Positions 43,556 through 60,392 of a DNA stretch of 64,000 nucleotides are shown in pieces. Each line of letters starts with the position of its first letter. Position 1 is the stretch's first letter. A program made the translations under genes and the position numbers. The notes below the pieces were generated by a model that made no database searches, had not been told where the DNA came from, and saw nothing but the letters and a program-made list of their open reading frames with translations. Source of the stretch: Planctomycetota bacterium (GTDB lineage: Bacteria > Planctomycetota > Planctomycetia > Gemmatales > HRBIN36); contig JACTMY010000010.1 in assembly GCA_014584395.1 (NCBI GenBank), forward strand, positions 1-64,000, in the 5' to 3' direction.

Positions 43556-45403
43556 TCAAAACGTATCGACCATGTTAAAACTAAGATTCACGTCCAGAGC
43601 CATGATGTGATCGTTCAAGTATTCAAGCCAAAAATAAAAGAGTACGGTACTTGCAAATCCAGGAAGTAAACCGACCAGACCACGCCAAATCGGCAGCTTG
43701 AACAGGGCGGCCGAGAAAGTTCCAGTAGCGACATAAAACCAACCATATGAAAGCCAAGCCCATTTAGGCTCTTTGACATCATCGAAGTCGATACCCGTGC
43801 AAAGAACCGCCAAACCCGAAAGAATCATTGGCAGCCAATACGCATGAATCCGTTCCTTGCCGCCGACCATGAGAGCCGCAGCCAATAAACCAAGGGGCAT
43901 CAAAATCGTTAAAAGCGTCCGACTATGGTTTTCCGATTGAATGGCCGTTCCCAACCAAGGGTAAAGGGTTCCTTGGAGCAGGACGATGACGACGATGAAC
44001 AACTGCCATTCGATCGCCATGGCGGTGTTTTCAACGCGCTGCTGATGCGCCATGGGGTTCGTGGAAAACAAGTCGTCGATTCGACTCGCCTCCGAGTTGG
44101 TTAGTTCTTGCAAAATCACAGGAGAGAGGTCGTCATCTTTTGAATCGACTTTAGCGTGGACCGCTTCTCTCGACGCGCCGCCTGATGCATCATCTAGTTC
44201 TTCCAACTTGATGATGTCCAACTGCTGCGCTTTCGTCAGTTCTGGCAAAGGCACGATGCGCACGGACGAGACGTCGATCACGGCAGCCTGACCTGCGGCA
44301 CTTCCCCCAACGCCAATTTCATCGGGTAAAAGTTGTACTAATTCATCCTTGCGACGCCGCCCCAGTTTCACAGAGTGGACATGACACCTTAAGACTTGCC
44401 CTTTATTGGACATCGACAGCAACACGATGCCGAGCAAAATGATCGAGCCACATCCCCAAATAATGATCGGTACACCAATAAACTGCAGCAACCCTTGACG
44501 CGACCGCGCTTCGGCGAATGGTGGGTAATACAGCGCAACGATCAGTCCTGACAAGATTACGATCAGGATGATGATGCGCAAGATCCATACAAAGGAGTAA
44601 ATTTTACCGATTTCCTCCTGAACACGAGCGCGGATTTTGGCCATCCGCGGATCGGCCAAGAAGGATTCATCGATGTCCTTCAAGACATGATCGGCTTTCA
44701 CCCAATTCCGCCGCCGAACGATTTCTTCTAATTGAGCGACCCGTTCCGTCACATCGCCCGTCGAGCGAACCAGCTCCAAGGCGCCTTCGTGATCGGCCAC
44801 GGCCACCAGCACGCTGCGGGCAAAGCGGTTCGCATTCTTCAAATGGCCGGCTGAAAACTCGGCTTTGGCCCGGGCATACAACGCATTGGCGGCGGCAATT
44901 TTCTGCCGCACGGCCTTGCTGATCGGCATTAGCTTGGCCACTTGTATCCGCTGGGCTTCGAGCCATGCGATCTCGCGCTCCAAGGAGATCAGTTTTCTTT
45001 GCGCCAGCAATTCACGCACGTCGTCGCCCAGGAGGAGATTCGCGCGCTCCATGACGACTTTGCATTTTTGCTCTAATTCCGCAATCTGCGCATCCGCAGG
45101 AAACGCATGGCGCAGCGATTCAAGCAATAGTGCCGCTTGCTTGTAGGCACCTTGAGCCATCAATGCGACAACGGCTTTCAGCTTCTTTTCGTGGTAATGG
45201 TGGATCGACTTAACGCGCGCTTTGGGAATGTCCGTTCCGCACTTGGAACAAAAGCGCACTCCCGCCGCGATGAGGAAGGAACATTGCGGGCAGTTCTGCC
45301 ACAAGGCCGCGCCGCAGGAGTCGCAGAATTGAGCATCTCGCGGATTGAACCGCTTGCACCCTGGGCAAACCACAGAACTGCTTGCGTCGCCTTGAACAGG
45401 CAT
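43556..45403 (-). CDS. Double zinc-ribbon, multi-pass membrane protein in the TIR operon
   Basis: This encodes about 615 residues from the ATG at 45403; a TTG at 45418 is an alternative. The N-terminus has tandem zinc ribbons, CPGC...CDSC and CPQC...CSKC (about 12-55). A helical/TPR-like region follows (about 65-260: QGAYKQAALLLESLRHAFP, ELLAQRKLISLEREIAWLEAQ). Then come two membrane helices (about 275-330), a cytoplasmic segment rich in Asp/Ser, and about six more hydrophobic helices to the C-terminus. No known family is recognised beyond the zinc ribbons. Position between a TIR protein and a small membrane protein suggests a membrane component of one system. Confidence 0.6.
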   Translation of the reverse strand: MPVQGDASSSVVCPGCKRFNPRDAQFCDSCGAALWQNCPQCSFLIAAGVRFCSKCGTDIPKARVKSIHHYHEKKLKAVVALMAQGAYKQAALLLESLRHAFPADAQIAELEQKCKVVMERANLLLGDDVRELLAQRKLISLEREIAWLEAQRIQVAKLMPISKAVRQKIAAANALYARAKAEFSAGHLKNANRFARSVLVAVADHEGALELVRSTGDVTERVAQLEEIVRRRNWVKADHVLKDIDESFLADPRMAKIRARVQEEIGKIYSFVWILRIIILIVILSGLIVALYYPPFAEARSRQGLLQFIGVPIIIWGCGSIILLGIVLLSMSNKGQVLRCHVHSVKLGRRRKDELVQLLPDEIGVGGSAAGQAAVIDVSSVRIVPLPELTKAQQLDIIKLEELDDASGGASREAVHAKVDSKDDDLSPVILQELTNSEASRIDDLFSTNPMAHQQRVENTAMAIEWQLFIVVIVLLQGTLYPWLGTAIQSENHSRTLLTILMPLGLLAAALMVGGKERIHAYWLPMILSGLAVLCTGIDFDDVKEPKWAWLSYGWFYVATGTFSAALFKLPIWRGLVGLLPGFASTVLFYFWLEYLNDHIMALDVNLSFNMVDTF

Positions 45404-45436
45404 GCCAGGATGAGCCAAACGGGCTAACTCATCTTG

Positions 45437-45955
45437 TCAGACTTTTTCTTCCTGTCGGGCCTTTTCCTCCAAGCGCAGCCGTTCTTCGAGTCGATCCCGT
45501 ATTCTTTTGATTTCTAGGATCAACCGATTGACGTCTTCCTTGAAATAGGGGTCTCCTCTGACTTCGGTGACATGGATGTCCAATAGCCAATGCAATGACG
45601 CTGGGATTTGATCGAGGCGAGGAAAAGGCGCGTTTTTCACGATGATGGACATCACCAAGCGTTTGTTGCGATTGGCTGCTTCCAACTCGTAGCGCACCCA
45701 ATCATCGTCATTCATGATGCGCGGCTGACCCGACTTCTGATCGACGCAACTCGTCCACTGTTTGCCGATCAGCGCTAATACAATGTCACTCTTCGATACG
45801 GACTGCTCAAGGACCCGTTTCCATTTTTGGCCTGGTCGAATGGAATCCAAGTCTTTGAACAGATTCTCACTGCCGAATTCCACGACTAACCGATCATAGA
45901 GACGACCCGCCAGATCGTCGGTATCTTTTCGTCGATAATTGATGAACAGCTTCAT
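45437..45955 (-). CDS. TIR-domain protein
   Basis: This encodes 172 residues. MKLFINYRRKDTDDLAGRLYDRL and NLFKDLDSIRPGQKW are the box 1 and box 2 motifs of bacterial TIR domains of the 'FISYRR' type. DDWVRYELEAA carries Glu90 at the position of the catalytic glutamate of NAD-cleaving TIRs. The C-terminal 40 residues form a charged coiled coil (IKRIRDRLEERLRLEEKARQEE). TIR proteins act as NADases in antiphage defence or as signalling adaptors. Here it heads an operon with a zinc-ribbon membrane protein and a small membrane protein. NADase activity is inferred, not shown. The 256-base spacer upstream (45956-46211) holds no gene that I can support. Confidence 0.85.
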   Translation of the reverse strand: MKLFINYRRKDTDDLAGRLYDRLVVEFGSENLFKDLDSIRPGQKWKRVLEQSVSKSDIVLALIGKQWTSCVDQKSGQPRIMNDDDWVRYELEAANRNKRLVMSIIVKNAPFPRLDQIPASLHWLLDIHVTEVRGDPYFKEDVNRLILEIKRIRDRLEERLRLEEKARQEEKV

Positions 45956-47264: not shown

Positions 47265-48047
47265 TCACGCACGACGCTGCTCCGCGCACCCTGCGCAGTC
47301 CAAGCCCGCGTCGGCTTCCAAATCGGGCGTGGGCTGCATGGGAGCTTGGGGTGCTTCCAAGCCGAACCATCTGCGTTCGAAGGTGACGAACGAGGCCAAG
47401 ACTTGGGCCAATTCGGCATAATACCCTTCTCCCGCTTTAAATCGCAAACCTTTGGCGAAAGAGGGCACCCACCATGCCAGATGGGCTTCAAAAAAGGACT
47501 TGGCCGCTTCCGCGCACAGCCAACCCCGCGACCGCCCCAGATCATCTGCGCTGGCCAAACGCTCTTTCATAAGCAGCAAGGCCATGAATTCCAGTTCGAG
47601 AGTCAAATGGTCCGGCCGTTCCGAGGCGTTCGCGGGAGCCTGCACGCCAAAGGCATGGTAAAACCCCGCGATGTCGGCTAACTGCTGCGTCCGAAAGAAC
47701 GGTTCGTTATTCGGCTGAAACTCGGTCTCAAAAGGCGGACATTCCCGGCAACTCATCAACCCAAAGACGCGTTCGTATTCGGTCCGCCATTCTTCGAAGG
47801 AAAGATCGTGAAACAACGTCCATAGCGTGCGGAAGTTGAGCCGTTCGGGGCCGATTTCACCGAACCCCAATTGATCGGTGAACGCCGCCGATTCCAAGCG
47901 GAGCAGTTCCGCGGCGGCTTGAAGGTAATACAGCGATTCGGGGTTGAAGAAATCGATGCGCGAGGGATGACGCGGATCCGTCAAGGCCGATGCCAGGAAT
48001 CGGTAGATGCCCTCGCGAGCCAATGGCAGAGAGATGTTCGCAACCAT
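47265..48047 (-). CDS. TorD/NarJ-type molybdoenzyme chaperone
   Basis: This encodes 260 residues from the ATG at 48047, which has a perfect AGGAGG 6 bases upstream; this start decides against the longer frame to 48107. The fold is all-helical: REGIYRFLASALTDP at the start, then EEWRTEYERVFGLMSCRECPPFETEF, which matches the TorD-family E-Y-x-x-x-F...PPYE region, and LELEFMALLLMKER. The C-terminus has a CAGC. Such chaperones bind the catalytic subunit during molybdopterin insertion and hold it back from Tat export. It lies directly after the Fe-S subunit gene (10-base gap), the normal order in Nar/Nxr/Pcr/Ebd operons. Confidence 0.86.
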   Translation of the reverse strand: MVANISLPLAREGIYRFLASALTDPRHPSRIDFFNPESLYYLQAAAELLRLESAAFTDQLGFGEIGPERLNFRTLWTLFHDLSFEEWRTEYERVFGLMSCRECPPFETEFQPNNEPFFRTQQLADIAGFYHAFGVQAPANASERPDHLTLELEFMALLLMKERLASADDLGRSRGWLCAEAAKSFFEAHLAWWVPSFAKGLRFKAGEGYYAELAQVLASFVTFERRWFGLEAPQAPMQPTPDLEADAGLDCAGCAEQRRA

Positions 48048-48057
48048 GATCCGCCTC

Positions 48058-49350
48058 CTAGATCGAGTTCGCATGCTTGGCGAACGGGCGTTTGTGGATG
48101 GGTTCATCGATCGTCACGCGCACGACTTCCTTGCCGAATTTGTTGAAGCCCATGACGGTGTCGTTATAAAGATGCTGCACCTTGATTTGCCCATTCGGCA
48201 TCTTGATCGGTACTTCCGCCACCTTGGGGCCCTTTTCGATCTTGAATTTGAACAGAATTTGCCGCTGTGCTCGGAAGAGCTGCAAGACCGCCAGCAGTTC
48301 CCGGTCCGGGCAGCAATACTGTTCGATCGCCCGGTCGACGCCGGGACCGAACATTTGCTGCAGATATCCCCGCGGGACCCAACGGGGCGGGATGTAGAAG
48401 CCGTTGGGCTCCGTGCCGAATTGCGGATAGAGCGGCAACGCCACCTGCCGTTCGCGGATGAGATAGCAGAGCGGGTTTTCGGGATCATTGGCCCATTTCC
48501 CATCGTCGCCGATCTTGACCAGTCCCTGCATGCGAATCTTGCCGACGCACACGGACATGCAGCGGGTTTCGACCGGTTCGCCATTGGGACTGAGTTCGGG
48601 ATCCTTGCCTTCGATGCGGGGATAGCAACCGACGCACTTTTCACTGGTGCGGGTGTTCGGCCGGAACATCACCTTTTTGTAGGGACAGCCCTCGACGCAT
48701 TTGCGGTAACCGCGGCACCGCTCCTGGTCGATGAGAACGATGCCGTCCTCGGGCCGCTTGTAGATGGCTTGGCGGGGGCAGGCTCCCAAACAGCCGGGAT
48801 AGGTGCAATGATTACAAATGCGAGCCAAGTAAAAGAACCAGACTCGGTGTTCGGGCAATTGCGACGTTTGATCGAAGGCGCCGGGCTGATACTTCATTCC
48901 CTGAGCGGCATCCTCATGCAAATTGGGCGTCCGCCATTCCGCTTCCGTGGGCTGATAACCCAGAACCGCCTGCGGACCTTCCGGTCCGACGTATTTTTTA
49001 GCCGCGTCGAAGATGGTCATGCCGGTGAATTCCCCATAGGGTTTTTCCCGGCCGTTCTTGGCGGCGGCATCCCACGATTGCTGGCCCGGATTAACCCCTT
49101 CCAGCATCGACAACAGCTTGGCGTCCCAGTTTCTCGGGTAGCCGCCGAAGGGCTTCGTTTCGACGTTGTTCCACCACATCGATTCTTGCCCTTTGGCAAA
49201 CGTCCACGTGCTTTTGCACGCCATCGTGCACGTCTGACAGGCAATACAACGATTGATGTTGAACACAAAGGCGAATTGCCATTGCGGATGCTTCTCCTCG
49301 TAGGGGTAGCTCATCGGCCGGCCAAGTTGCCAGTTATAGACCATTGCCAT
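48058..49350 (-). CDS. nxrB: NXR/NarH-type Fe-S electron transfer subunit
   Basis: This encodes 430 residues, the size of NxrB. Four Fe-S cluster motifs are visible: CIACQTCTMACKSTW, CNHCTYPGCLGACP, CRGYRKCVEGCPYKK and EKCVGCYPRIE followed by CMSVCVGKI. In the third motif Tyr sits where NarH has Trp, the [3Fe-4S] position. GQESMWWNNVETKPFGGYP and YKRPEDGIVLIDQERCRGY are close to nitrite-oxidoreductase beta subunits of Nitrospira and anammox bacteria as I remember them. There is no signal peptide, so export would be by hitch-hiking with the Tat-tagged catalytic subunit. It carries electrons from the Mo subunit to the cytochrome/haem gamma subunit. Confidence 0.88.
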   Translation of the reverse strand: MAMVYNWQLGRPMSYPYEEKHPQWQFAFVFNINRCIACQTCTMACKSTWTFAKGQESMWWNNVETKPFGGYPRNWDAKLLSMLEGVNPGQQSWDAAAKNGREKPYGEFTGMTIFDAAKKYVGPEGPQAVLGYQPTEAEWRTPNLHEDAAQGMKYQPGAFDQTSQLPEHRVWFFYLARICNHCTYPGCLGACPRQAIYKRPEDGIVLIDQERCRGYRKCVEGCPYKKVMFRPNTRTSEKCVGCYPRIEGKDPELSPNGEPVETRCMSVCVGKIRMQGLVKIGDDGKWANDPENPLCYLIRERQVALPLYPQFGTEPNGFYIPPRWVPRGYLQQMFGPGVDRAIEQYCCPDRELLAVLQLFRAQRQILFKFKIEKGPKVAEVPIKMPNGQIKVQHLYNDTVMGFNKFGKEVVRVTIDEPIHKRPFAKHANSI

Positions 49351-49785: not shown

Positions 49786-52700
49786 TTAACCACGGATTTT
49801 GATGAAGCCGCCGCTGAGATACTGCAGATTCAAGGGAGCGTCATTGCCCGGCGTGAAGGGCGTTTCCGCGACTTCCCACGAACCTTTGCCGCCCAAGCCG
49901 CCATCCTCGGCCTTGACGATGCGAACCAGCGTTTCCTTGGGGACGGTGTTGATGGCGTGATTGTCGGCCTCGCCGCCGAACATAAAGGCCATTTTCACCT
50001 TGGCCTTGTGAAACAACGTGTCGGTCTGGTGCATAGGCATGAGCCAATTGCGGGTGCACGATTGCTGGGCGCCGTAGCGCAAGTTGGCCTGGTAGCCCGT
50101 GTCCGCCGACCGCGCTCGACCGTCGGGGCTGTTTTCATGGGCATGCACCGTTTTTTCCGTGGCGATGAAGGGGGCATGCTTGATCATCACGACGCCGCGC
50201 GGATAACTCGGATTATAAATCACCCGCAGCATCAACCGGGCCACCTTGGCCCGCGCCGGATCCTGCTGCCAACCCCGGAAGGGCCGGTCCGCGGGATTGG
50301 AGTCCACATAGGCATAATCCCCGTTCTTCAACCCCAAGTCCTTGGCGTCATCCGGATTCACGTGCATCTGGTGATCGCCATAACCGGGCAGACGCTTGTC
50401 GGTCCGGAAGGGATCGCCATGGTTCGAATCCCAGATGATGTGCCAATCGACCGTCGACCACGAAGAGTGAACGCGGTGCCGGCTCTTCGGCGTCAACAGG
50501 AAATAGCGATATCCCGCTTCCCACAAGGGATTCTTGGTCTGCTTCACTTCCTGCCAGGGCAGTTTGACGTTGCGAATGGTCCTCTCGTCCCAATGCATCG
50601 CGTCGCGGGGGATGCCGAAGTCATCGGGGCGGATCAGCGGGTTCGTGCTCACGATAACGTTAGGCAAATAAGGCGTTGCTTCCGGCCCCTCGCGATGGAC
50701 GATGAAGTTTTCGCCATGCAGGATCGCTTCGGGAATATCACAATAACTGTTCAGCCGCCCCGTATCGGTCCAGAACGGCACCCCGTCGTGCAAGTTCTCA
50801 TAGAACGGAATGCGCGGATAGGTGCGGAAGAGCATAAGGGCCACGCCAGATTCGCCGTACTTGCCGGCCATGATATCGTCCACGGTATAGCCGCGCGTCG
50901 TCGTCGAGGCATCGAGCAACCGCTGGATATAGACTTTCGCTCCATCCTGGCGGTCTTTCACCAGGAAATGCCAGTAGTCCGCAAAGCGCCGGTCGCCCGT
51001 TTCCTTGGTCAGCGCCTCGGCGGCCTCGGCCAAGATCAAGGAATCATCCCGCGTATCATGGACGGGAGGAATTCCCCCTTTCCATATGTTCAGGAAGGGA
51101 TTGGAACAGGAGGCGGTGATCTCCAGGTTCTGAAACTCCATCCAAGTATTGACGGGGTAGACCAGATCGGCGTACTCGCAGGAACTGGTCATCTCGCAAT
51201 CCTGCGCGATGATGCAATCGATCTTCGGATTGACCACGAAGAACATGTCATAGGCATGCTTGGCGTTGTTGAACAGATTGACGTTGGTGAACCACAGGAA
51301 CTTCGTCGGCGTGGGCATGTGGGTCTGGCCGGTGAAGCACTTGCGGCCATACTTCGGCGTGTTCACGACCAGGGGCCGCTCGCCATGATTCCAATAGGCT
51401 GGCTCCTCGTCCTTGGAATATTTCTTGACCTTGACTGCCTTGCCATCGGCCTTCGGATCGAGATTGGGATGGAAGGGGTCTTCCGCGATCCAGCCCAGAA
51501 AGCCCGGCAAGTCGCCCGAACCTTGGAACAGGGCTGCTTTGTAATTCCCCGCCCAGGTGAAACAGCCCGCGCCCGGCCGGCCCAACTGACCGGTCAGCAT
51601 GAGGGGAAGGTACTGAGCGCGATTGGCCAGCGTGGCGTGGAACCAATGGTTGATCCCCTCGCCCACGTGGATGGCCACGGCGTGCCCCCGCTCAGTGGTC
51701 TCCCAAATATCGCGCGCCAGTTGCGCGATCAAGTCTTGCCGAGAGCCGGTGATCTGCGAAACCGTCTCGAGATCGTAGTCCTTCAGATTGATCTGATAGG
51801 CGTCCCACAAGGTCATGACTTCAACTTCACTGCCATCCACCAATTTGATCTTGCCCCGATAGGACAAAGCCGGATCAATGCCAGCCTGCGCCAAACGTTC
51901 ACCCATCTGATCCCGAGTCAAGGGGCGCAAAGCCTTTTGCTTCTCGTCATAGATCATGAAATCGCCGATCTTGGCGTATTGCTCGTCGGTGAGATGTTGG
52001 TAGGCGTAAGAGGGTCCGGTTTTCTCCAGGCCGGGTTGGTAACCTTGAATCACGTCGCTAGCGCGCAGCCGCTTGAGGGTGTCGGTGCGGATGAGCAGCG
52101 GGAAATCGGTATAGGCTTTGACGAAGTCGGCCTTGTACCAACCCTGGTCGATCATGTGTTTGGTAACGCCCAAGAACAAAGCCGTGTCCGTGCAACCGGG
52201 ACGCACCTGAATCCAATAGTTGGCCTTGGTGGCGGGAGGTCCGTATTCAGGCGTGATGACCACGATCTTGCCGCCGCGCTCCATCAGTTCGTTGAACCAA
52301 TGGTTGTCGGGCATCTTGTTCTCGACCAGGTTCTTGCCGCATTGAATATGCAGCTTGGCATGGCGCATGTCGTTGAAATCGCAATCGGACGTTTGCAGGC
52401 CATGGACAAAGGGATGGCCCGGGGCCTGATCGCCATGCCAGGTGTAATTTGACCAAAGCCGCCCGCCTTGAGCGTCCTTGGGATCGACCTTGCGCACGTT
52501 TTGATCAAGCAGGGCGAGCATGTTGGCCCAACGATACATGCCATACTTGCCAATGACGCCCAGCAGTCCCATGCCGCCGCGCAGCTTGAACGTCCTGGTG
52601 CCCGCGCCATGGCACTCGTCGATCATCTCCGGTTCATAACCATCCGCCTTGAAGCGGCGCACACCCTCCGGGCCGCTATACGTCTTGGCGATGGCCACGG

Positions 52701-53241
52701 CCGCTTTCGCATGATACCGATACATGTCCTCCCAGGAGACGCGAACAAACGTGTCCGTGCCCCGGCTGTTGAAGCGGTACTTGTCGCGCAACGATGGATC
52801 ATCGGAAAGCGAAGGGAAACCGGCGTCCGCCCATTCCTTCCATCCCTTGCGGATCAGGGGCCATCGCAAGCGGTACGGCCCATACAACCGCCGCTGCTGC
52901 GAGAAACCCTTCGCACAGCCGCGCGGATTCCAATGTTCCGTGTCGCAGTGGCCGTAAAGATCCTTGATCTTCCCGCTTTCATATTGCTGCTCGGAACGGA
53001 GCACGATGCCATTGCGAACGTAGGCGATCATGCGGCAATTGTGCGTGTCGTTCGGCGCGCAGACCCATGAGAAGGAACGATCATAACGGTATTGATCGCG
53101 GTAGGTTTCCTCCCAGCCCCGATTCGGATAGACTCCGAGCGGATTGGCCACGTTCACTGGCTGCAAGCCATACAACTTAGGCAGCATCAACGATTGCGAG
53201 GTCAAGGTCAAACTGGCCGTTAGGAAGTCGCGGCGATTCAT
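49786..53241 (-). CDS. nxrA: NXR-type molybdopterin oxidoreductase catalytic subunit (nitrite oxidoreductase / Nar family)
   Basis: This encodes 1151 residues, the size of NxrA. The N-terminus MNRRDFLTASLTLTSQS is a Tat signal (RRDFL), so the active site should face the periplasm. The proximal cluster region is C61-x3-D65-x3-C69...C109 (WVCAPNDTHNCR ... WNPRGC), as in periplasmic NXR-type enzymes, where NarG has His-x3-Cys-x3-Cys. GLQTSDCDFNDMRHAKL aligns with the NarG segment carrying the Mo-ligand Asp; here Asp291. YGPYRLRWPLIRKGWKEWADAGFP, NHGERPLVVN and later blocks follow NXR enzymes more closely than E. coli NarG. GGAGGAG precedes the ATG. Reaction direction (nitrite to nitrate, or reverse, or another oxyanion) cannot be settled from sequence. 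Confidence 0.88.
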   Translation of the reverse strand: MNRRDFLTASLTLTSQSLMLPKLYGLQPVNVANPLGVYPNRGWEETYRDQYRYDRSFSWVCAPNDTHNCRMIAYVRNGIVLRSEQQYESGKIKDLYGHCDTEHWNPRGCAKGFSQQRRLYGPYRLRWPLIRKGWKEWADAGFPSLSDDPSLRDKYRFNSRGTDTFVRVSWEDMYRYHAKAAVAIAKTYSGPEGVRRFKADGYEPEMIDECHGAGTRTFKLRGGMGLLGVIGKYGMYRWANMLALLDQNVRKVDPKDAQGGRLWSNYTWHGDQAPGHPFVHGLQTSDCDFNDMRHAKLHIQCGKNLVENKMPDNHWFNELMERGGKIVVITPEYGPPATKANYWIQVRPGCTDTALFLGVTKHMIDQGWYKADFVKAYTDFPLLIRTDTLKRLRASDVIQGYQPGLEKTGPSYAYQHLTDEQYAKIGDFMIYDEKQKALRPLTRDQMGERLAQAGIDPALSYRGKIKLVDGSEVEVMTLWDAYQINLKDYDLETVSQITGSRQDLIAQLARDIWETTERGHAVAIHVGEGINHWFHATLANRAQYLPLMLTGQLGRPGAGCFTWAGNYKAALFQGSGDLPGFLGWIAEDPFHPNLDPKADGKAVKVKKYSKDEEPAYWNHGERPLVVNTPKYGRKCFTGQTHMPTPTKFLWFTNVNLFNNAKHAYDMFFVVNPKIDCIIAQDCEMTSSCEYADLVYPVNTWMEFQNLEITASCSNPFLNIWKGGIPPVHDTRDDSLILAEAAEALTKETGDRRFADYWHFLVKDRQDGAKVYIQRLLDASTTTRGYTVDDIMAGKYGESGVALMLFRTYPRIPFYENLHDGVPFWTDTGRLNSYCDIPEAILHGENFIVHREGPEATPYLPNVIVSTNPLIRPDDFGIPRDAMHWDERTIRNVKLPWQEVKQTKNPLWEAGYRYFLLTPKSRHRVHSSWSTVDWHIIWDSNHGDPFRTDKRLPGYGDHQMHVNPDDAKDLGLKNGDYAYVDSNPADRPFRGWQQDPARAKVARLMLRVIYNPSYPRGVVMIKHAPFIATEKTVHAHENSPDGRARSADTGYQANLRYGAQQSCTRNWLMPMHQTDTLFHKAKVKMAFMFGGEADNHAINTVPKETLVRIVKAEDGGLGGKGSWEVAETPFTPGNDAPLNLQYLSGGFIKIRG

Positions 53242-53279: not shown

Positions 53280-54923
53280 CTACTCCACCGTCAATTCATG
53301 CCAAATGGAGATTTGCTTTTGACCATTGCGATCCCGGGCCGCTCCATCCCAGATCGAGAAGGCAATGAAGCACTTCTTACCCGAGTTTAAGCTCACGCCT
53401 TCATTTGGTTTCAGGGCCAAGGGACGCACAAACGTGACCGACCATTGCCCCGTCTGATATTGAGCTTCAGCCTTGACCCACTGAGAACCTCGGGGGCGGA
53501 ACGTGGTGCTGCCCAGACCCGACGCCATCAGATGGCTCGCGCTTTGTCCAGCCTCGGAGGCGCTGTTTTGGTTGTTCGCAGCCCTGGCTGTATAAAAATT
53601 AGGCGGCGGACGATCCGACTTGGGCAAGCGCTTCAACAACTCGAAATAAAGCGGCAGGTCAAATGGATAATCATCGAGGATGTGCTTCGCCTTGGTTTGA
53701 TCCACGGCCTGGCTGGCTTTCCACAGCCAGATGTCGACCACGCCAAAACCGTGTGCCCCCATGCCAATGAACGGTTCTTGCTTGCCATCGAAGATTTGAA
53801 CGGAAGCCTGGTCCTCATAGTCCTCGGGCCGCAGAATCACGTCGTTTTTCGAATCATCCTTCCACGTCAAGCGGATGGCCAACTGCTGGCCGTCATGCAG
53901 CGCTTGCACCTGAAGTTCGGGGTTTTTCCATTCCCGCCACCAGAGGGGAGCCGTGACAATGAAAGTCGACCCAACGCTATTCCAATCGGCACCTTCCAAG
54001 CGGTCCACGCGGCGGGCCGCCAATTGCTGCCGCTTGAATTCGACCTTGGCTTGGGTCTCTTCCGGCGCCAGGGAGCGGATGAAATGCACCATGTCGGCGA
54101 TTTCCGCCGGCTTCATATGCGGGCTGCCGGGCATGGGCGTGCCGGGCATGCCGATGTAAGTGCGACGAAACAGGGAGGCCACGTCCCGCCCGCCTTTAAA
54201 GATGCCCTGTGTAAAATCGCGGGGACGGGTGGGCGTGCCATCGTCATCCCTCTGATCTTTGCCGCCTTCGCCCCGCCCTGTTTCTCCATGACAAGTCGCA
54301 CAATGGGTCATGTACAGATCCCTGCCCCTCATCACGCTCGCCTGATCCTCCGAGGGCAATTGGCCAGGAAGCGTCAAGAGGTCCCCCGGCGTCGTTTGCC
54401 GCAGGGCTTCCTTTTTGATATGTTCCTCATCCACATCATCGCCAGAGTCCTCATACGCTTTCCTCAACCGTTTTTCGATGCCTGCTCGAGAAAGCCAGCG
54501 CACATACTGCACTAGCGAGTTCAGCTCCGGTTCTGACAAGTGGCCAAACGCCGTCATCGCCGAGCCGGGCATGCCGCGCCGGATCACCTGCATCAAGTCG
54601 TCATCGGTTGGGATGCGATTGACCGTGGAGATGACGCGGTATTTGCCTTCCTGGAAGTTGCGCGGCTTGGGGTAAAGAAACTGCGCCGCAATTCCCAATC
54701 CATCTCCAGCATCTCCGTGACACGCCGCACAATGGCGAGTGAAAAGGGCTTTCCCCATTTCCAACAGGGGAGAAGGAGTGTCTGGTTGCGTGGCCGAGGC
54801 CGCCGACGATGGATGAACGATCACTTCCACGGACGCACCGGCCTTCGTCCAGGCCATCATGCCACAGGCGCATCCAATCCCGATCCCCAGGATGACTAGT
54901 CCAGTCTTGATGGGTTGTGTCAT
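53280..54923 (-). CDS. nxrC: NXR gamma-like subunit: two cytochrome c domains fused to an ethylbenzene-dehydrogenase-type haem domain
   Basis: This encodes 547 residues. The N-terminal hydrophobic segment (about 7-27) is a signal/anchor. Cytochrome c domain 1 has C65-x2-C68-H69 (HCAACHG) and a Met-rich MPGSAMTAFGHL. Domain 2 has C208-x2-C211-H212 (HCATCHG) and MPGTPMPGSPHM. From about residue 320 (WWREWKNPELQVQALHDGQQLAIRLTWKD) to the end is an EB_dh/DMSO-reductase gamma-like beta-sandwich that binds a b-type haem. It would take electrons from the Fe-S subunit and pass them through c haems to soluble carriers or an oxidase. First gene of the operon; the alpha gene follows after 38 bases. A sigma-54 promoter lies about 50 bases upstream. 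Confidence 0.85.
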   Translation of the reverse strand: MTQPIKTGLVILGIGIGCACGMMAWTKAGASVEVIVHPSSAASATQPDTPSPLLEMGKALFTRHCAACHGDAGDGLGIAAQFLYPKPRNFQEGKYRVISTVNRIPTDDDLMQVIRRGMPGSAMTAFGHLSEPELNSLVQYVRWLSRAGIEKRLRKAYEDSGDDVDEEHIKKEALRQTTPGDLLTLPGQLPSEDQASVMRGRDLYMTHCATCHGETGRGEGGKDQRDDDGTPTRPRDFTQGIFKGGRDVASLFRRTYIGMPGTPMPGSPHMKPAEIADMVHFIRSLAPEETQAKVEFKRQQLAARRVDRLEGADWNSVGSTFIVTAPLWWREWKNPELQVQALHDGQQLAIRLTWKDDSKNDVILRPEDYEDQASVQIFDGKQEPFIGMGAHGFGVVDIWLWKASQAVDQTKAKHILDDYPFDLPLYFELLKRLPKSDRPPPNFYTARAANNQNSASEAGQSASHLMASGLGSTTFRPRGSQWVKAEAQYQTGQWSVTFVRPLALKPNEGVSLNSGKKCFIAFSIWDGAARDRNGQKQISIWHELTVE

Positions 54924-54972
54924 GGCATTTCTCCACGGGGCCGATGCGAGTTCAAAATAACGGATTCAACCA

Positions 54973-54990
54973 TTGCAAAGAGGATGCCAA
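54973..54990 (-). promoter_or_regulatory. Sigma-54 (-24/-12) promoter of the NXR-like operon
   Basis: On the minus strand the sequence TTGGCATCCTCTTTGCAA matches the sigma-54 consensus (TGGCAC-N5-TTGCW) with GG and GC elements exactly 10 bases apart. The GC element is about 50 bases upstream of the gamma-like subunit ATG at 54923, giving a leader of about 40 bases. Confidence 0.75.
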
Positions 54991-55079
54991 TTCTCAACAA
55001 TGCCGTCGCTCGCAATCATCTGGAAAAGGAATTCGTTTTCTTTGTTCTGCCCTGCGCCACTTCGACCCATCGGTCCAAA

Positions 55080-55098
55080 CCGCACAGTTCCTGTGCGG
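55080..55098. promoter_or_regulatory. Palindrome at enhancer distance from both sigma-54 promoters
   Basis: CCGCACAG-TTC-CTGTGCGG is a perfect 8+8 bp inverted repeat. Another half-site CCGCACA follows at 55102-55108. It lies about 92 bases upstream of the -24 element of the NXR-like operon and about 122 bases upstream of that of the copper-protein gene. That is the usual range for NtrC-type activator sites. It is the best candidate upstream activating sequence for the response regulator at 56244-57707. Confidence 0.55.
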
Positions 55099-55191
55099 GT
55101 TCCGCACACTGGACGTGGGCTTTGACTCATCGGTTGGGCTAACCAATGGATCGGATGTCGCCAAAACAAATCGGTCTGATGGATTCGTAAG

Positions 55192-55208
55192 AGGTCACAT
55201 TGTGACCT
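55192..55208. promoter_or_regulatory. Palindromic operator candidate next to the copper-protein promoter
   Basis: AGGTCAC-ATT-GTGACCT is a perfect 7+7 bp inverted repeat ending 12 bases before the -24 GG of the plus-strand sigma-54 promoter. It is too close for a classical enhancer, so it may bind a different regulator (for example a CRP/FNR-like or GntR-like protein) or a repressor. Identity unknown. Confidence 0.45.
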
Positions 55209-55217
55209 GGTCAAGGA

Positions 55218-55235
55218 TTGGCATGGAAACTGCAA
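55218..55235 (+). promoter_or_regulatory. Sigma-54 (-24/-12) promoter of the copper-protein gene
   Basis: TTGGCATGGAAACTGCAA has GG and GC 10 bases apart and matches the sigma-54 consensus well. It lies about 75 bases before the ATG at 55311 and is divergent from the NXR-like operon promoter at 54973-54990. Confidence 0.7.
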
Positions 55236-55310
55236 TATTCATTTCAGCAGAACAAAGGTGTATGGCTTGAGATGGTTTCATTCAGCAACATTGAAAGTGA
55301 GGGGCCGATC

Positions 55311-56078
55311 ATGTTACGAACCGCAATAAGACGGATGGGACATGTCTTGGGAGTGACGGGAGTCATCCTTGCCGTGAGTCTGATGCCGCTGCAAGCAACC
55401 ATGCCCATGGCGGATGGCTGGGGCACGATCAAGGGCCAAATTGTGTATGATGGCACTCCTCCCACCCCGGAACAACTCAAGGTCGACAAGGACACGGATC
55501 ACTGCCTCGCCAAGGGGCCGCTCATGAGTGAAGCCTGGACGGTCGACGCCAAAACCAAGGGGGTTAAGTGGGCGGCCGTTTTTCTCAAGCCAGCGCGGGG
55601 TCAACCCTTGCCGGTTCATGACACTCTCAAGGCCGTCCCCAGCGAACCCGCCTTGCTGGATCAACCTCTTTGTATGTTCTCACCTCATGTCCTGGCCTTA
55701 AGAGAAGGACAAAAGCTGCTCGCCAAGAATCCCGCCCCAATCCCGCACAACGTCATTTTGTCGGGGTTGAGCAACACGGCCAACGTCACGACGCCGGCGG
55801 GGGGTTCCTACGCCTTCAATCTGAACTACGAACCTGGCCCCGTCACTATTAGCTGCGGCGCGCATCCCTGGATGAAAGGGTACGTTTGGGTCTTCAAGCA
55901 TCCTTATTTCGCCATCACCGACGCGGAAGGGCGCTTTGAAATCAAGCTCGCTCCAGCCGGCAAACGTCAATTGGTCTTCTGGCATGAGGTCGCAGGTTAC
56001 TTTCCCGACAAGAATGGACAAATGATCGATGTCACCCCCAATGGCGTGACCGACCTGGGCGTGATTAAAGTCAAGTAA
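55311..56078 (+). CDS. Exported type-1 copper (plastocyanin/cupredoxin-like) protein
   Basis: This encodes 255 residues. A signal peptide (about 1-35) is followed by GWGTIKGQIVYDG. The copper ligands can be read as His146 (PIPHNVIL), Cys182, His185 and Met188 (CGAHPWMKGYV), the classic H...C-x2-H-x2-M type-1 pattern. The C-terminal third (TDAEGRFEIKLAPAGKRQLVFWHE) is a carboxypeptidase-regulatory-like beta domain, as in 'methylamine utilisation' type cupredoxins of planctomycetes. The ATG at 55311 follows GAGGGG; longer in-frame starts lack support. Divergent from the NXR-like operon with a matching sigma-54 promoter, so it is a good candidate periplasmic electron carrier for that enzyme. Confidence 0.85.
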   Translation: MLRTAIRRMGHVLGVTGVILAVSLMPLQATMPMADGWGTIKGQIVYDGTPPTPEQLKVDKDTDHCLAKGPLMSEAWTVDAKTKGVKWAAVFLKPARGQPLPVHDTLKAVPSEPALLDQPLCMFSPHVLALREGQKLLAKNPAPIPHNVILSGLSNTANVTTPAGGSYAFNLNYEPGPVTISCGAHPWMKGYVWVFKHPYFAITDAEGRFEIKLAPAGKRQLVFWHEVAGYFPDKNGQMIDVTPNGVTDLGVIKVK

Positions 56079-56243: not shown

Positions 56244-57707
56244 ATGGTCAGTCCCAAGCCAGAAACGGAAATCGCTTCGACGCCAGCCGTTGAACCGGCT
56301 GGACCGAGGGAAGCGCTTCCCGTTTCAGGCTCGCCGCCGCTGAACCTCCTTCTCATCGACGATGATGATGACTTTCGCGGCATCGTGGCGCGGCGGTTTC
56401 TGCGCCGCGGCCATGAGGTGAACCATTCGGGATCGCCTCTCGAAGCTTTGAGCTGGATCGAACGACAATCCTTCGACGTCATCGTTCTCGACATCTCCAT
56501 GCCCGAGATGGATGGCGTCACGGCCTTGGCCCAAATCAAAAAATTAGCCCCAGAGACGCAAGTGATCATGCTGACGGGCCAGGCCACACTGGAGACGGCG
56601 GTTCGAGCGATGAAGCTGGGCGCCTACGATTATTTGACCAAGCCCTGCGAACTGGCCGAGTTGGAAATGCACGTTCAACGAGCGGCGGAGAAAGCTCGCC
56701 TGGCCAGGGAAAACCGCAATCTGAAAGCGGTCCTGCGCAAGCAAACACCCGCGGTTCAGTTGATAGGCCATTCCTCCGGCCTGCGGCAAGTCATGCACAT
56801 GATTCAACGCGTTGCACCGACTGCCAATGCCGTGCTAATCCTGGGCGAGAGCGGCACGGGCAAGGAGTTGGTCGCGCGCGCCATCCATCAAAGCAGCCCG
56901 CGTTCGGAACAACCCCTGGTCACCGTTAATTGTGCCGCGCTGCAGGACAGCTTGCTGGAAAGCGAATTGTTTGGCCATGAAAAGGGCGCCTTCACCTCCG
57001 CCCAGTCCGCCAAGCCCGGATTATTTGAAGTGGCCAATGCCGGTACGTTGTTTATTGATGAGGTCGGAGAGCTTTCTCCCACCTTGCAAGCCAAACTGCT
57101 CCGCGTTCTTGAAGATGGCCGCATTCGCCGCGTGGGAGCGGTCAAGGAGATTAAAACCGACGTTCGCATCATCGCGGCCACGAATCGCGATCTGGCCAAG
57201 GCCGTCGAGGAAAAACGTTTTCGCGATGACCTCTATTATCGGCTGAACGTCGTGCCCATTGTCGTGCCTCCTCTACGAGAACGACGCGAAGACATTCCCT
57301 TGCTTGTCGAACATTTCCTTAAGCTCAGCCCGGATGGCCCCGCCGCGGTGTCGCCGCAAGCGATGGATGCGCTCACGCGCTATGCCTGGCCTGGCAACGT
57401 CCGGGAACTCAGCAACGTCATCGCTCGAGCCAAGATTCTCGCCGAGGGGCAGCGCATCGAGTTGATGGATCTACCCGACCACGTGGCCAACGCCCAATCC
57501 CTCGCCGATCTGGACGGTTCGACGCCCCCCGTTTCGTCGCCGGCCAATCGATTCGAGGAGAATGAAAGGCAGATCCTTGTCCGTGTCTTGAAACAACACC
57601 ATGGGAACAAGGTGCATGCTGCCGCTGATCTGGGCATCAGCCGGCGCAAGCTCTATCGCTTGTTGGAGAAACATGGTCTGAAAAACACGGAGTGGTCCAA
57701 TCATTGA
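56244..57707 (+). CDS. Sigma-54-dependent response regulator (NtrC family)
   Basis: This encodes 487 residues. A Pro-rich N-terminal extension (about 30 residues) precedes the receiver domain, with acidic pocket LLIDDDDDF, phospho-acceptor Asp83 in VLDISMPEMDG, the Thr in MLTGQ and the Lys in YLTKP. The AAA+ domain has Walker A GESGTGKE, the sigma-54 contact loop GAFTSA (a common variant of GAFTGA), Walker B LFIDEVGEL and YAWPGNVREL. The C-terminal Fis-type helix-turn-helix reads NKVHAAADLGISRRKLYRLLEKHGL. It lies between the copper-protein gene and a globin-coupled kinase, and the two nearby sigma-54 promoters are its likely targets. It overlaps the convergent kinase gene by 7 bases. Confidence 0.93.
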   Translation: MVSPKPETEIASTPAVEPAGPREALPVSGSPPLNLLLIDDDDDFRGIVARRFLRRGHEVNHSGSPLEALSWIERQSFDVIVLDISMPEMDGVTALAQIKKLAPETQVIMLTGQATLETAVRAMKLGAYDYLTKPCELAELEMHVQRAAEKARLARENRNLKAVLRKQTPAVQLIGHSSGLRQVMHMIQRVAPTANAVLILGESGTGKELVARAIHQSSPRSEQPLVTVNCAALQDSLLESELFGHEKGAFTSAQSAKPGLFEVANAGTLFIDEVGELSPTLQAKLLRVLEDGRIRRVGAVKEIKTDVRIIAATNRDLAKAVEEKRFRDDLYYRLNVVPIVVPPLRERREDIPLLVEHFLKLSPDGPAAVSPQAMDALTRYAWPGNVRELSNVIARAKILAEGQRIELMDLPDHVANAQSLADLDGSTPPVSSPANRFEENERQILVRVLKQHHGNKVHAAADLGISRRKLYRLLEKHGLKNTEWSNH

Positions 57708-58936
57708 GGCAAAATGATATGAAAGGCGGTTCCCTCCTGCAGTCGCGACGTGCACCAAATGCGCCCCCCTTGCTCCTCGACGATTTGCCGCACCATGTAA
57801 AGTCCCAACCCGTGGCCCGGCAAATGTTCGTGCTGTTTGAGTCGTCGGAAAGGCGCGAAAATGCGCTGCTGGTCGGCGTCGCTGATCCCCGGGCCGTTGT
57901 CCCCAACGGCCAACTGCACCTGCTGCCCCTCGCCATGGGCCGAGACCCAGATTCGACCAGGGCTTTTATCCATGAATTTCACGGCATTCGAGATGAGGTG
58001 ATACAGCACTTCACGCAGACGAGCCGGGTGGGTAAGCAGATCGGGCATGGTTTCTTGAATTTCAAACTGAATCGGCTCCGTGTCGAAATCCAGGCGGATG
58101 CGCTCCAGGACTTCATCGACCAAGGTGCGCAATTTGACTCGTTGCCGCTGACTTGGTTGCGCCGCGGCTTCGCTCATCGACAGCAATTCATCGATCATGC
58201 CCTTCATGTGGCGCGTGCGGTTCAGGGCGGCCTCGATCAATTGGCGGGCTTCGACAGGCACCGTTTGGCCAAACTCATCGATAAACTCCTCGCAGAAACC
58301 CGAGATCGTCGCCAGGGGCGTTTTGAGATCATGGGAAGCCATGCGGGCGAACTCGCGCAGTTCCGTATTGGACTGCGTGTACAGCGCCAGCGCTTGTCGC
58401 AGGTCCATCGTGGAGCGTGCATAATACGAATCCAAGGTCAAGCCGATGTCCAGCAGAATGTGCTTCATCAGCGAGGCCAACCCCGCTTCGAAGCTGCCCC
58501 GAGCCTCGGGGGGAACGTCGCGAACTTGTTGAAAGGCCAGTTGGATATATTGATTGAATGCCCCCAAGAACCAGGCAGGCTCAATGCCCGCGGCAGCATG
58601 GCGGTCGCCAATGCGGCGCCGCTCGGCCACCCGCGAGCCATCCATCCGCGCATCAAAGAGACTCACAAAATACTGCAATTGGGCTGCTTTCAAACGCTCC
58701 ACCAAACGTTCATCACGCAAGAAAAACGCCGTGGCGGAAAATTGCAGCAAGTGGGCGTAAAACTGGTCGACAAAAGCCCGGTTGACCGCTTCGAAGATCG
58801 GCTTCAGTGCTCGGACACGTTCGACGTCCTCCGAGGTCAACTGCAAAAATGCACACCGTTCGTCAAGCAGCGCTTCATCGGAAAGGTGAATCGTCTCTTC
58901 CGTCGTCGATGCGTCCCAATTTGGCTGATGGCTCAT
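57701..58936 (-). CDS. Globin-coupled sensor histidine kinase
   Basis: This encodes 411 residues. Residues about 20-175 are a protoglobin/globin-sensor domain: LKPIFEAVNRAFVDQFYAHLL, then RRRIGDRHAAAGIEPAWFLGAFNQY, in which His113 is the proximal haem ligand. The dimerisation/phospho-acceptor domain has His202 in MASHDLKTPLATISGF. The HATPase domain has LYHLISNAVKF (N box), VGDNGPGISDAD (G1) and GHGLGLYMVRQIVEEQGG (G2). There are no membrane segments, so it should be a cytosolic sensor of O2, NO or CO. The gene is convergent with the sigma-54 response regulator (stop codons overlap by 7 bases), its probable partner. Confidence 0.92.
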   Translation of the reverse strand: MSHQPNWDASTTEETIHLSDEALLDERCAFLQLTSEDVERVRALKPIFEAVNRAFVDQFYAHLLQFSATAFFLRDERLVERLKAAQLQYFVSLFDARMDGSRVAERRRIGDRHAAAGIEPAWFLGAFNQYIQLAFQQVRDVPPEARGSFEAGLASLMKHILLDIGLTLDSYYARSTMDLRQALALYTQSNTELREFARMASHDLKTPLATISGFCEEFIDEFGQTVPVEARQLIEAALNRTRHMKGMIDELLSMSEAAAQPSQRQRVKLRTLVDEVLERIRLDFDTEPIQFEIQETMPDLLTHPARLREVLYHLISNAVKFMDKSPGRIWVSAHGEGQQVQLAVGDNGPGISDADQQRIFAPFRRLKQHEHLPGHGLGLYMVRQIVEEQGGRIWCTSRLQEGTAFHIILPQ

Positions 58937-59036
58937 AGGATGCTTTCTGACTCATGGCATGAACAGTGAATGAGGTCTCGCGCCGATCAAGTCGACTCGA
59001 TTTCAGGGTATTACTAGCATGTTCAAGGATTTCCTC

Positions 59037-60392
59037 ATGACTTCAATCCATCCCAACGGCTTGGCTCCCCGATCGCTCCGGGCGATCCAGCTTGGAGCAT
59101 GCCTCCTTATCTTAGCGGCCTCGCTTGGCTCGCTGCAAGGCGATGATCTCGAAGCAGAACCGATTCGCTATTCCGAATCGACGCCGCGCAATCTTATCAG
59201 CCGGCTCCAAGAGCGCATCAATGCTGGCACCTTAACGTTGTCCTATGATCCGCAGCGCGGTTACTTGCCCTCGGTGCTCAAAGCCTTGGGAGTCGATCCC
59301 TCCTCGCAAATGTTGGTCTTCTCCAAAACCAGCCTGCAGCGCCATCGCATCGGCCCCAAAACACCACGGGCTCTTTACTTCAACGATGAGGTCTACGTCG
59401 GCTATTGCCATCAAGGGGACGTCATGGAGTTTTCCGCCGTCGATCCGATGCTCGGCACGGTGTTTTACACCTTGGATCAACAAGACCAGCCCAAACCGGT
59501 CTTCCGCAGGCAATGGGATTCTTGCTTGATCTGTCATGGTTCTTCCGCCTTGCAAGGGTATCCTGGCCACTTGGTCCGATCCGTCTATCCCGATTCGCAG
59601 GGTCATCCGATCCTGTCCACCGCCACGTTTCGTACCGATCAGTCCAGCCCCTGGAAGCAACGCTGGGGCGGTTGGTACGTCACCGGCACCAGCGGCCAGC
59701 AATGGCACATGGGGAATCTGATCGTCGAAGATAAACGCCGCGTCGATGCGTCCGATCTAAAACCCAGCAGTCATCGCGCCAAGTTGGATGAATTCTTCGA
59801 CGTGCGTCAACACCTGACGCCGCAGAGCGACGTGGTGGCCTTGATGGTCTTCGAACATCAAACGGAAATGCACAATCGCCTTACCCGTGCCAACTTGCAA
59901 ACCAGGCGCGCCTTGCATGAAGCCAGCGAACTGCGACGCGAGTTAAAATTGCCAGCCCATCATGAATTCGAAAGCACGAACAGCCGCCTGCGTGCCGCGG
60001 GTGAACCCTTGGTAAAATATCTCTTTTTCGTGAAAGAAACGCCATTGGGCGAGCCGATCCAGGGGACGTCCGCGTTCGCCCGCCATTTTCCCGCCGCCGG
60101 TCCGCGTGATGATCTTGGACGTTCGCTCAGGGATTTGGATCTACAAAGGCGGCTGTTCAAATATCCATGCAGTTACTTGATCTATTCGGAAGCCTTTGAC
60201 GCCCTGCCTGAGCCGATGTTGGATTATGTCTATCGCCGCATGAATGAGATCCTGTCAGGCCAAGATCGTTCCCCGGAGTTTGCCCATCTCTCGCCACCGG
60301 ATCGTCGAGCCATACTCGAAATCCTCCTCGCCACCAAGCGAACCATTCCCCCTGTTTGGCGAAAGGCCATGGAAGCGACGTTGCGCCAATGA
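59037..60392 (+). CDS. Exported monohaem c-type protein of the planctomycete 'CxxCH' family
   Basis: This encodes about 451 residues from the ATG at 59037 (AAGGA 8 bases upstream); an in-frame ATG at 59019 lacks such a site. A signal segment (QLGACLLILAASLGSLQG) is followed by the conserved blocks LYFNDEVYVGYCHQGDVMEFSAVDP and TVFYTLDQQ. A haem-binding motif CLICHGSSALQGYPGHLVRSVY lies at about residues 163-167, and RWGGWYVTGTSGQQWHMGNLI follows. This combination recurs in planctomycete and acidobacterial proteins of unknown function. It could relay electrons for the adjacent NXR-like system, but no direct evidence links them. It is divergent from the globin-kinase gene. Confidence 0.75.
   Translation: MTSIHPNGLAPRSLRAIQLGACLLILAASLGSLQGDDLEAEPIRYSESTPRNLISRLQERINAGTLTLSYDPQRGYLPSVLKALGVDPSSQMLVFSKTSLQRHRIGPKTPRALYFNDEVYVGYCHQGDVMEFSAVDPMLGTVFYTLDQQDQPKPVFRRQWDSCLICHGSSALQGYPGHLVRSVYPDSQGHPILSTATFRTDQSSPWKQRWGGWYVTGTSGQQWHMGNLIVEDKRRVDASDLKPSSHRAKLDEFFDVRQHLTPQSDVVALMVFEHQTEMHNRLTRANLQTRRALHEASELRRELKLPAHHEFESTNSRLRAAGEPLVKYLFFVKETPLGEPIQGTSAFARHFPAAGPRDDLGRSLRDLDLQRRLFKYPCSYLIYSEAFDALPEPMLDYVYRRMNEILSGQDRSPEFAHLSPPDRRAILEILLATKRTIPPVWRKAMEATLRQ

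Follow-up and report, generated by a model that had tools for sequence, protein, structure and literature searches.

A putative sigma-54 enhancer region between the NXR-type operon and the copper-protein gene of a planctomycete, with a protoglobin kinase as candidate sensor

NXR makes nitrate and can run backwards, its enzyme class being bidirectional (PMC8387239), and the signal that controls it is poorly known. In the 64,000-nucleotide stretch of Planctomycetota DNA analysed here (the window), an NXR-type operon and a gene for a copper protein diverge from a short intergenic gap (54924-55310), which raises the question of what drives transcription on its two sides. Judged from its sequence features, the gap is highly probably a bidirectional enhancer-controlled region, in which the NtrC-type regulator encoded at 56244-57707 would drive both promoters, with a protoglobin kinase acting upstream of the regulator.

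The NXR-type operon and its divergent neighbour

The genes on the two sides of the gap were assigned as follows:
53280-54923, minus strand: NXR gamma-like subunit, the operon's first gene, with two cytochrome c domains and an ethylbenzene-dehydrogenase-type haem-b domain
49786-53241, minus strand: NXR alpha (molybdopterin) subunit
48058-49350, minus strand: NXR beta (Fe-S) subunit
47265-48107, minus strand: TorD/NarJ-type chaperone
55311-56078, plus strand: cupredoxin-like exported protein with a PHNV...C-x2-H-x2-M motif

By sequence comparison the operon is genuinely of the NXR type, its alpha and beta subunits being nearest to NXR-A and NXR-B (Nitrospira/anammox clade) and not to NarGH, PcrAB or EbdAB. 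The alpha subunit matched Kuenenia NXR-A (7b04) with 1592 bits over 1141 residues, the next family (perchlorate reductase) reaching 171 bits, and the beta subunit matched Kuenenia NXR-B with 574 bits (next, 208 bits). A scan of the genome contigs with the gamma-subunit protein returned remote cytochromes only. Of 398 genomes sampled from the class, 21 had such an alpha subunit, and most of the class's NXR loci that were examined share the gamma-alpha-beta-torD order. The NXR of Candidatus Kuenenia stuttgartiensis shares a haem-b gamma domain with the present one and has alpha and beta subunits homologous to it, but Kuenenia is an anammox organism with a 15-gene cluster, whereas the operon described here consists of gamma, alpha, beta and chaperone genes and encodes a gamma-like subunit with two cytochrome c domains (PMC8387239). 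Non-anammox Planctomycetota metagenome-assembled genomes are reported to carry NXR-type genes, with NxrA matching Kuenenia NxrA at more than 1000 bits; in the accessible part of that study one figure legend places sigma-54-interacting regions near some of the clusters, and this part contains neither a promoter or enhancer analysis nor a globin sensor (PMC10732223). On the other side of the gap, the cupredoxin-like protein matched amicyanin weakly in sequence. Downstream of the NXR operon, in the interval 43556-45955, a TIR-domain protein (45437-45955) was found beside a zinc-ribbon/TPR protein, possibly a defence or signalling pair.

Promoter boxes and dyads in the gap

Five elements were resolved between the two start codons, of which the initial annotation had missed the last two:
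54974-54989, minus strand: sigma-54 -24/-12 box TGGCATCCTCTTTGCA, assigned to the NXR operon (score 17.4)
55219-55234, plus strand: sigma-54 -24/-12 box TGGCATGGAAACTGCA, assigned to the cupredoxin-like gene (score 17.1)
55080-55098: exact 19-bp palindrome CCGCACAG-TTC-CTGTGCGG
55092-55108: dyad TGTGCGGGTTCCGCACA (TGTGCGG-GTT-CCGCACA), the proposed enhancer (UAS)
55192-55208: perfect 17-bp palindrome AGGTCACATTGTGACCT (AGGTCACA-T-TGTGACCT), 10 bp upstream of the plus-strand -24 box

Both boxes follow the consensus TGGCAT-N5-YTGCA with GG-N10-GC spacing and are correctly oriented, each with a start codon downstream; TGGCATCCTCTTTGCA is 51 bp away from the first ATG of the NXR operon (54923), its -12 GC about 50 bp, and 77 bp separate TGGCATGGAAACTGCA from the ATG at 55311. 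The divergent boxes, their strands and their spacing were as given in the initial annotation, and rpoN, on whose presence that annotation had made its reading depend, was found in the genome (G000:C15). Exact matches to TGGCAYN5YTGCA numbered 11 in the 3.7-Mb genome, and the two within the window were the divergent pair alone. With a score cutoff of 14.5 or more, three boxes and one divergent pair were obtained in the window, while 100 shuffled windows together produced a single divergent pair. Another exact box (G000:C1:313302-313317, L021) was located 62 bp upstream of a GroEL-like gene.

The 19-bp palindrome had been described previously as perfect and as lying about 90 and 120 bases from the two -24 elements; it proved exact, with measured distances of about 92 and 121 bp, and the genome search suggested for further sites gave 55080-55098 as the sole exact copy. 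It is unlikely to be a terminator, because it lies between divergent genes, is not followed by a T-run and is absent from the terminator scan. The dyad at 55092-55108, also unique in the genome, is separated from the two -24 boxes by 119 and 127 bp and overlaps the palindrome such that a central half-site is common to both, making three alternating half-sites in all, the third being added by the palindrome (similar third half-sites were seen in loci L146 and L152). The conserved operator is likely to be this inward-facing dyad and not the 19-bp palindrome itself, as read from the recurrence of the motif described below. For the 17-bp palindrome, no other copy was found in the genome at fewer than 2 mismatches, and it is a possible operator for another factor. 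Two perfect palindromes with 8-bp arms occurred within a 387-bp gap in 1 of 1000 shuffles. A direct repeat, CTTCGACCCATCGGT (55060-55074) and CTTTGACTCATCGGT (55120-55134), spaced 60 bp apart, is almost symmetric around the half-site cluster.

The dyads might instead be operators for a repressor or some other factor, with coincidental -24/-12 matches and promoters of another type. Matches to the consensus are possible by chance, and the gap has an additional perfect palindrome at 55192-55208; however, a divergent pair such as this one is very rare by chance, as the shuffled windows indicated, a scan of 54900-55330 found no sigma-70-like promoter, and the layout recurs in a distant genome (G284, see below), so that this explanation is considered extremely improbable.

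A protoglobin kinase, its candidate regulator and a proposed mechanism

Two further genes follow the copper-protein gene, the second of which had gone unmentioned in the initial annotation:
56244-57707, plus strand: NtrC-type response regulator with receiver, sigma-54 AAA+ and Fis-type HTH domains
57701-58936, minus strand: protoglobin sensor histidine kinase (protoglobin domain, HisKA, HATPase), convergent with the regulator

Walker A and B motifs and the arginine finger are present in the sigma-54 AAA+ domain of the regulator, and its sigma-54 loop reads GAFTSA, in contrast to the GAFTGA or GSFTGA of those relatives whose motif could be read. A NorR variant with Ser at the Gly position of GAFTGA was active without signal, yet still partly regulated (PMC2941729). 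The GAFTSA loop may make the activity of the regulator partly independent of its signal. The copper gene and the regulator gene downstream of it are 166 bp apart, no plus-strand terminator-like site was found between the two, and the plus-strand box probably serves the regulator gene as well. In the kinase, the haem ligand His113, the distal Tyr60 and the phospho-acceptor His202 were invariant in 31 of 31 sequences, and in an alignment with HemAT and other globin-coupled sensors His113 fell on the position that binds haem. Divergent from the kinase gene is 59019-60392, which encodes an exported protein that carries a CxxCH haem motif and matched no Pfam family.

From the boxes, dyads, rpoN, protein domains, invariant catalytic and haem residues, recurrence of dyad plus box and the layout in G284, all read in sequence, we infer binding, phosphotransfer, looping, the identity of the ligand, polarity and co-transcription of the regulator as follows. 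The haem-ligand state (O2, possibly NO) would set the activity of the kinase, and is the likely input because the convergent protoglobin kinase would phosphorylate the regulator. The phosphorylated regulator would assemble on the half-site cluster at 55080-55108, centred near 55100, and loop to sigma-54 polymerase on both sides, opening the promoters of the NXR operon (minus) and the copper-protein gene (plus); the plus transcript would probably also feed the regulator gene, giving positive feedback. As the neighbouring pair consists of a haem-globin kinase and its predicted sigma-54 activator, oxygen (or nitric oxide) is the probable switch for NXR.

Such a chain resembles the NmpRSTU system of Myxococcus xanthus, in which a protoglobin kinase acts on an NtrC-like regulator with dyad enhancers and sigma-54 promoters, and which likewise has autoregulation, universal stress protein targets and a link to oxygen (PMC11841059). 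It differs in its multi-step phosphorelay via the hybrid kinase NmpS and in its dyad, GCGCA-N5-TGCGC, and no NXR target is reported for it (PMC11841059). NmpU has been modelled as active with oxygen, the intermediate kinase inverting the signal, which has NmpR acting when oxygen is low (PMC11841059). No intermediate kinase was apparent in the window, which makes an oxic signal as plausible as a hypoxic one, and with either polarity plausible, the role of NXR may be to oxidise nitrite or to reduce nitrate.

Control of NXR by sigma-54, called unexpected in the initial annotation, has a precedent that makes this wording overstated. In Nitrospira moscoviensis, sigma-54-dependent regulators adjoin nxrAB and NXR-specific regulation has been proposed, so that there, as here, periplasmic-type NXR genes stand beside sigma-54 activators (PMC6606698). 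That organism belongs to a different phylum, and the paper, as far as its accessible text goes, names regulators but not sites, describing neither promoter boxes nor enhancer sites nor a protoglobin kinase; the word "promoter" is absent from it (PMC6606698). Sigma-54 regulators next to nxrAB, planctomycete NXR, and the route from protoglobin kinase through NtrC-like regulator to sigma-54 are each already known separately, and in the literature covered, which leaves out most subscription journals, no paper uniting NXR, sigma-54 and a protoglobin kinase/NtrC pair was found. What appears to be new is the predicted link of a globin sensor to NXR, together with a cis-motif that would predict its targets. 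Sequence alone here names a candidate sensor, activator, enhancer and both promoters, as well as the cis-motif for other targets, and whether NXR works as nitrite oxidase (oxic) or nitrate reductase (low oxygen) in non-anammox planctomycetes becomes directly testable.

Recurrence of the layout and the dyad in the class

A locus from another family of the class (L100, genome G284) also carries an NXR operon, a divergent copper-like gene, the kinase and the regulator, with NxrA 56%, kinase 44% and regulator 51% identical. Its control elements were:
7697-7712, minus strand: sigma-54 box TGGCACGCAATCTGCG
7978-7993, plus strand: sigma-54 box TGGCACGCCGTCTGCA
7833-7846: palindrome GTGCGAATTCGCAC, between the two boxes

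A distance of 318 bp separates the minus-strand box from the copper-like ATG, which calls for caution on the match in layout. The kinase/regulator pair was found beside NXR in two genomes and the divergent sigma-54 layout in both, while the divergent pair of boxes was absent from the other 20 NXR loci or contigs. Since most NXR operons of the class have neither dyad nor sigma-54 box, this kind of control is not general. The NXR operon of L086 (G203) is a possible third case; a 1-mismatch dyad, TGTGCCAATTCGCACA (11439-11454), lies upstream of the gamma gene, and the sigma-54-like box there is only weak.

Kinase relatives (E < 1e-50) were present in 28 of the 398 genomes, mostly with a regulator relative alongside. 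The dyad TGTGCG-N4-CGCACA (at most 1 mismatch) preceded 12 of 60 sigma-54 boxes at a distance of 60-200 bp; these cases came from 10 kinase/regulator loci, and 118 control dyads of the same letters gave a mean of 0.03 and a maximum of 1. NXR loci without the kinase/regulator yielded no such case. The idea for the motif came from the window and L100, and the remaining loci constitute an independent test, though they are related to each other. Exact N4 dyads counted genome-wide showed no enrichment with the kinase (10 of 28 genomes versus 86 of 370; p = 0.17); as these counts do not tell kinase-bearing genomes from the others, the dyad carries information only when accompanied by a sigma-54 box. 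Among the dyad-linked targets were the regulator's own gene (L139, L144, L155, L158) and genes for universal stress proteins (L138, L155, L157), which suggests a planctomycete regulon of kinase/regulator relatives and sigma-54 promoters. These data and the layout in G284 support the shared central activator proposed in the initial annotation, with the difference that its operator would be the dyad at 55092-55108. The further claim, that planctomycetes have a protoglobin-kinase/NtrC family with its own TGTGCG-N4/5-CGCACA enhancer, linked elsewhere to universal stress protein genes and to the gene of its regulator, and coupled to NXR in at least two distant lineages, is held to be evenly balanced. 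If it is true, NXR would be gated by oxygen or NO, and the cell might choose its direction according to oxygen supply.

The window version of the dyad (TGTGCG-GGTTC-CGCACA) has a 5-bp spacer, compared with 4 bp in the other genomes, and the recognition helix of the regulator differs by S to K. The spacer could be taken to mean that the boxes are real sigma-54 promoters driven in trans by an activator encoded elsewhere (for example, a nitrogen- or nitrite-responsive one), the adjacent pair acting at other sites; sigma-54 activators commonly act in trans, and the regulator's relatives frequently act on genes for universal stress proteins. This is unlikely, however, given that the only TGTGCG/CGCACA dyad found in this genome with a suitably spaced sigma-54 box is the one in this gap, where it would serve both promoters, and that the divergent layout was found in both NXR genomes bearing the pair and in 0 of the 20 NXR loci without it. 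The same N5 spacer, together with a GAFTSA loop that is unique among relatives with a readable motif and a Ser that in NorR gives signal-free activity, would also fit an ancestrally functional region whose regulator has since become impaired or deregulated, so that NXR would be near-constitutive or silent. This is judged very unlikely, in that the remaining AAA+, receiver and HTH features of the regulator and the haem and phosphate sites of the kinase are intact, both boxes are still near consensus and the dyad arms are perfect. A working two-sided enhancer read by the adjacent regulator is the preferred explanation.

Kinase/regulator relatives near sigma-54 promoters of universal stress protein or regulator genes were also seen in L151 and L140, in addition to L138, L155 and L157, and some of these promoters were divergent (6017/6207 in L140 and 7907/8152 in L151).
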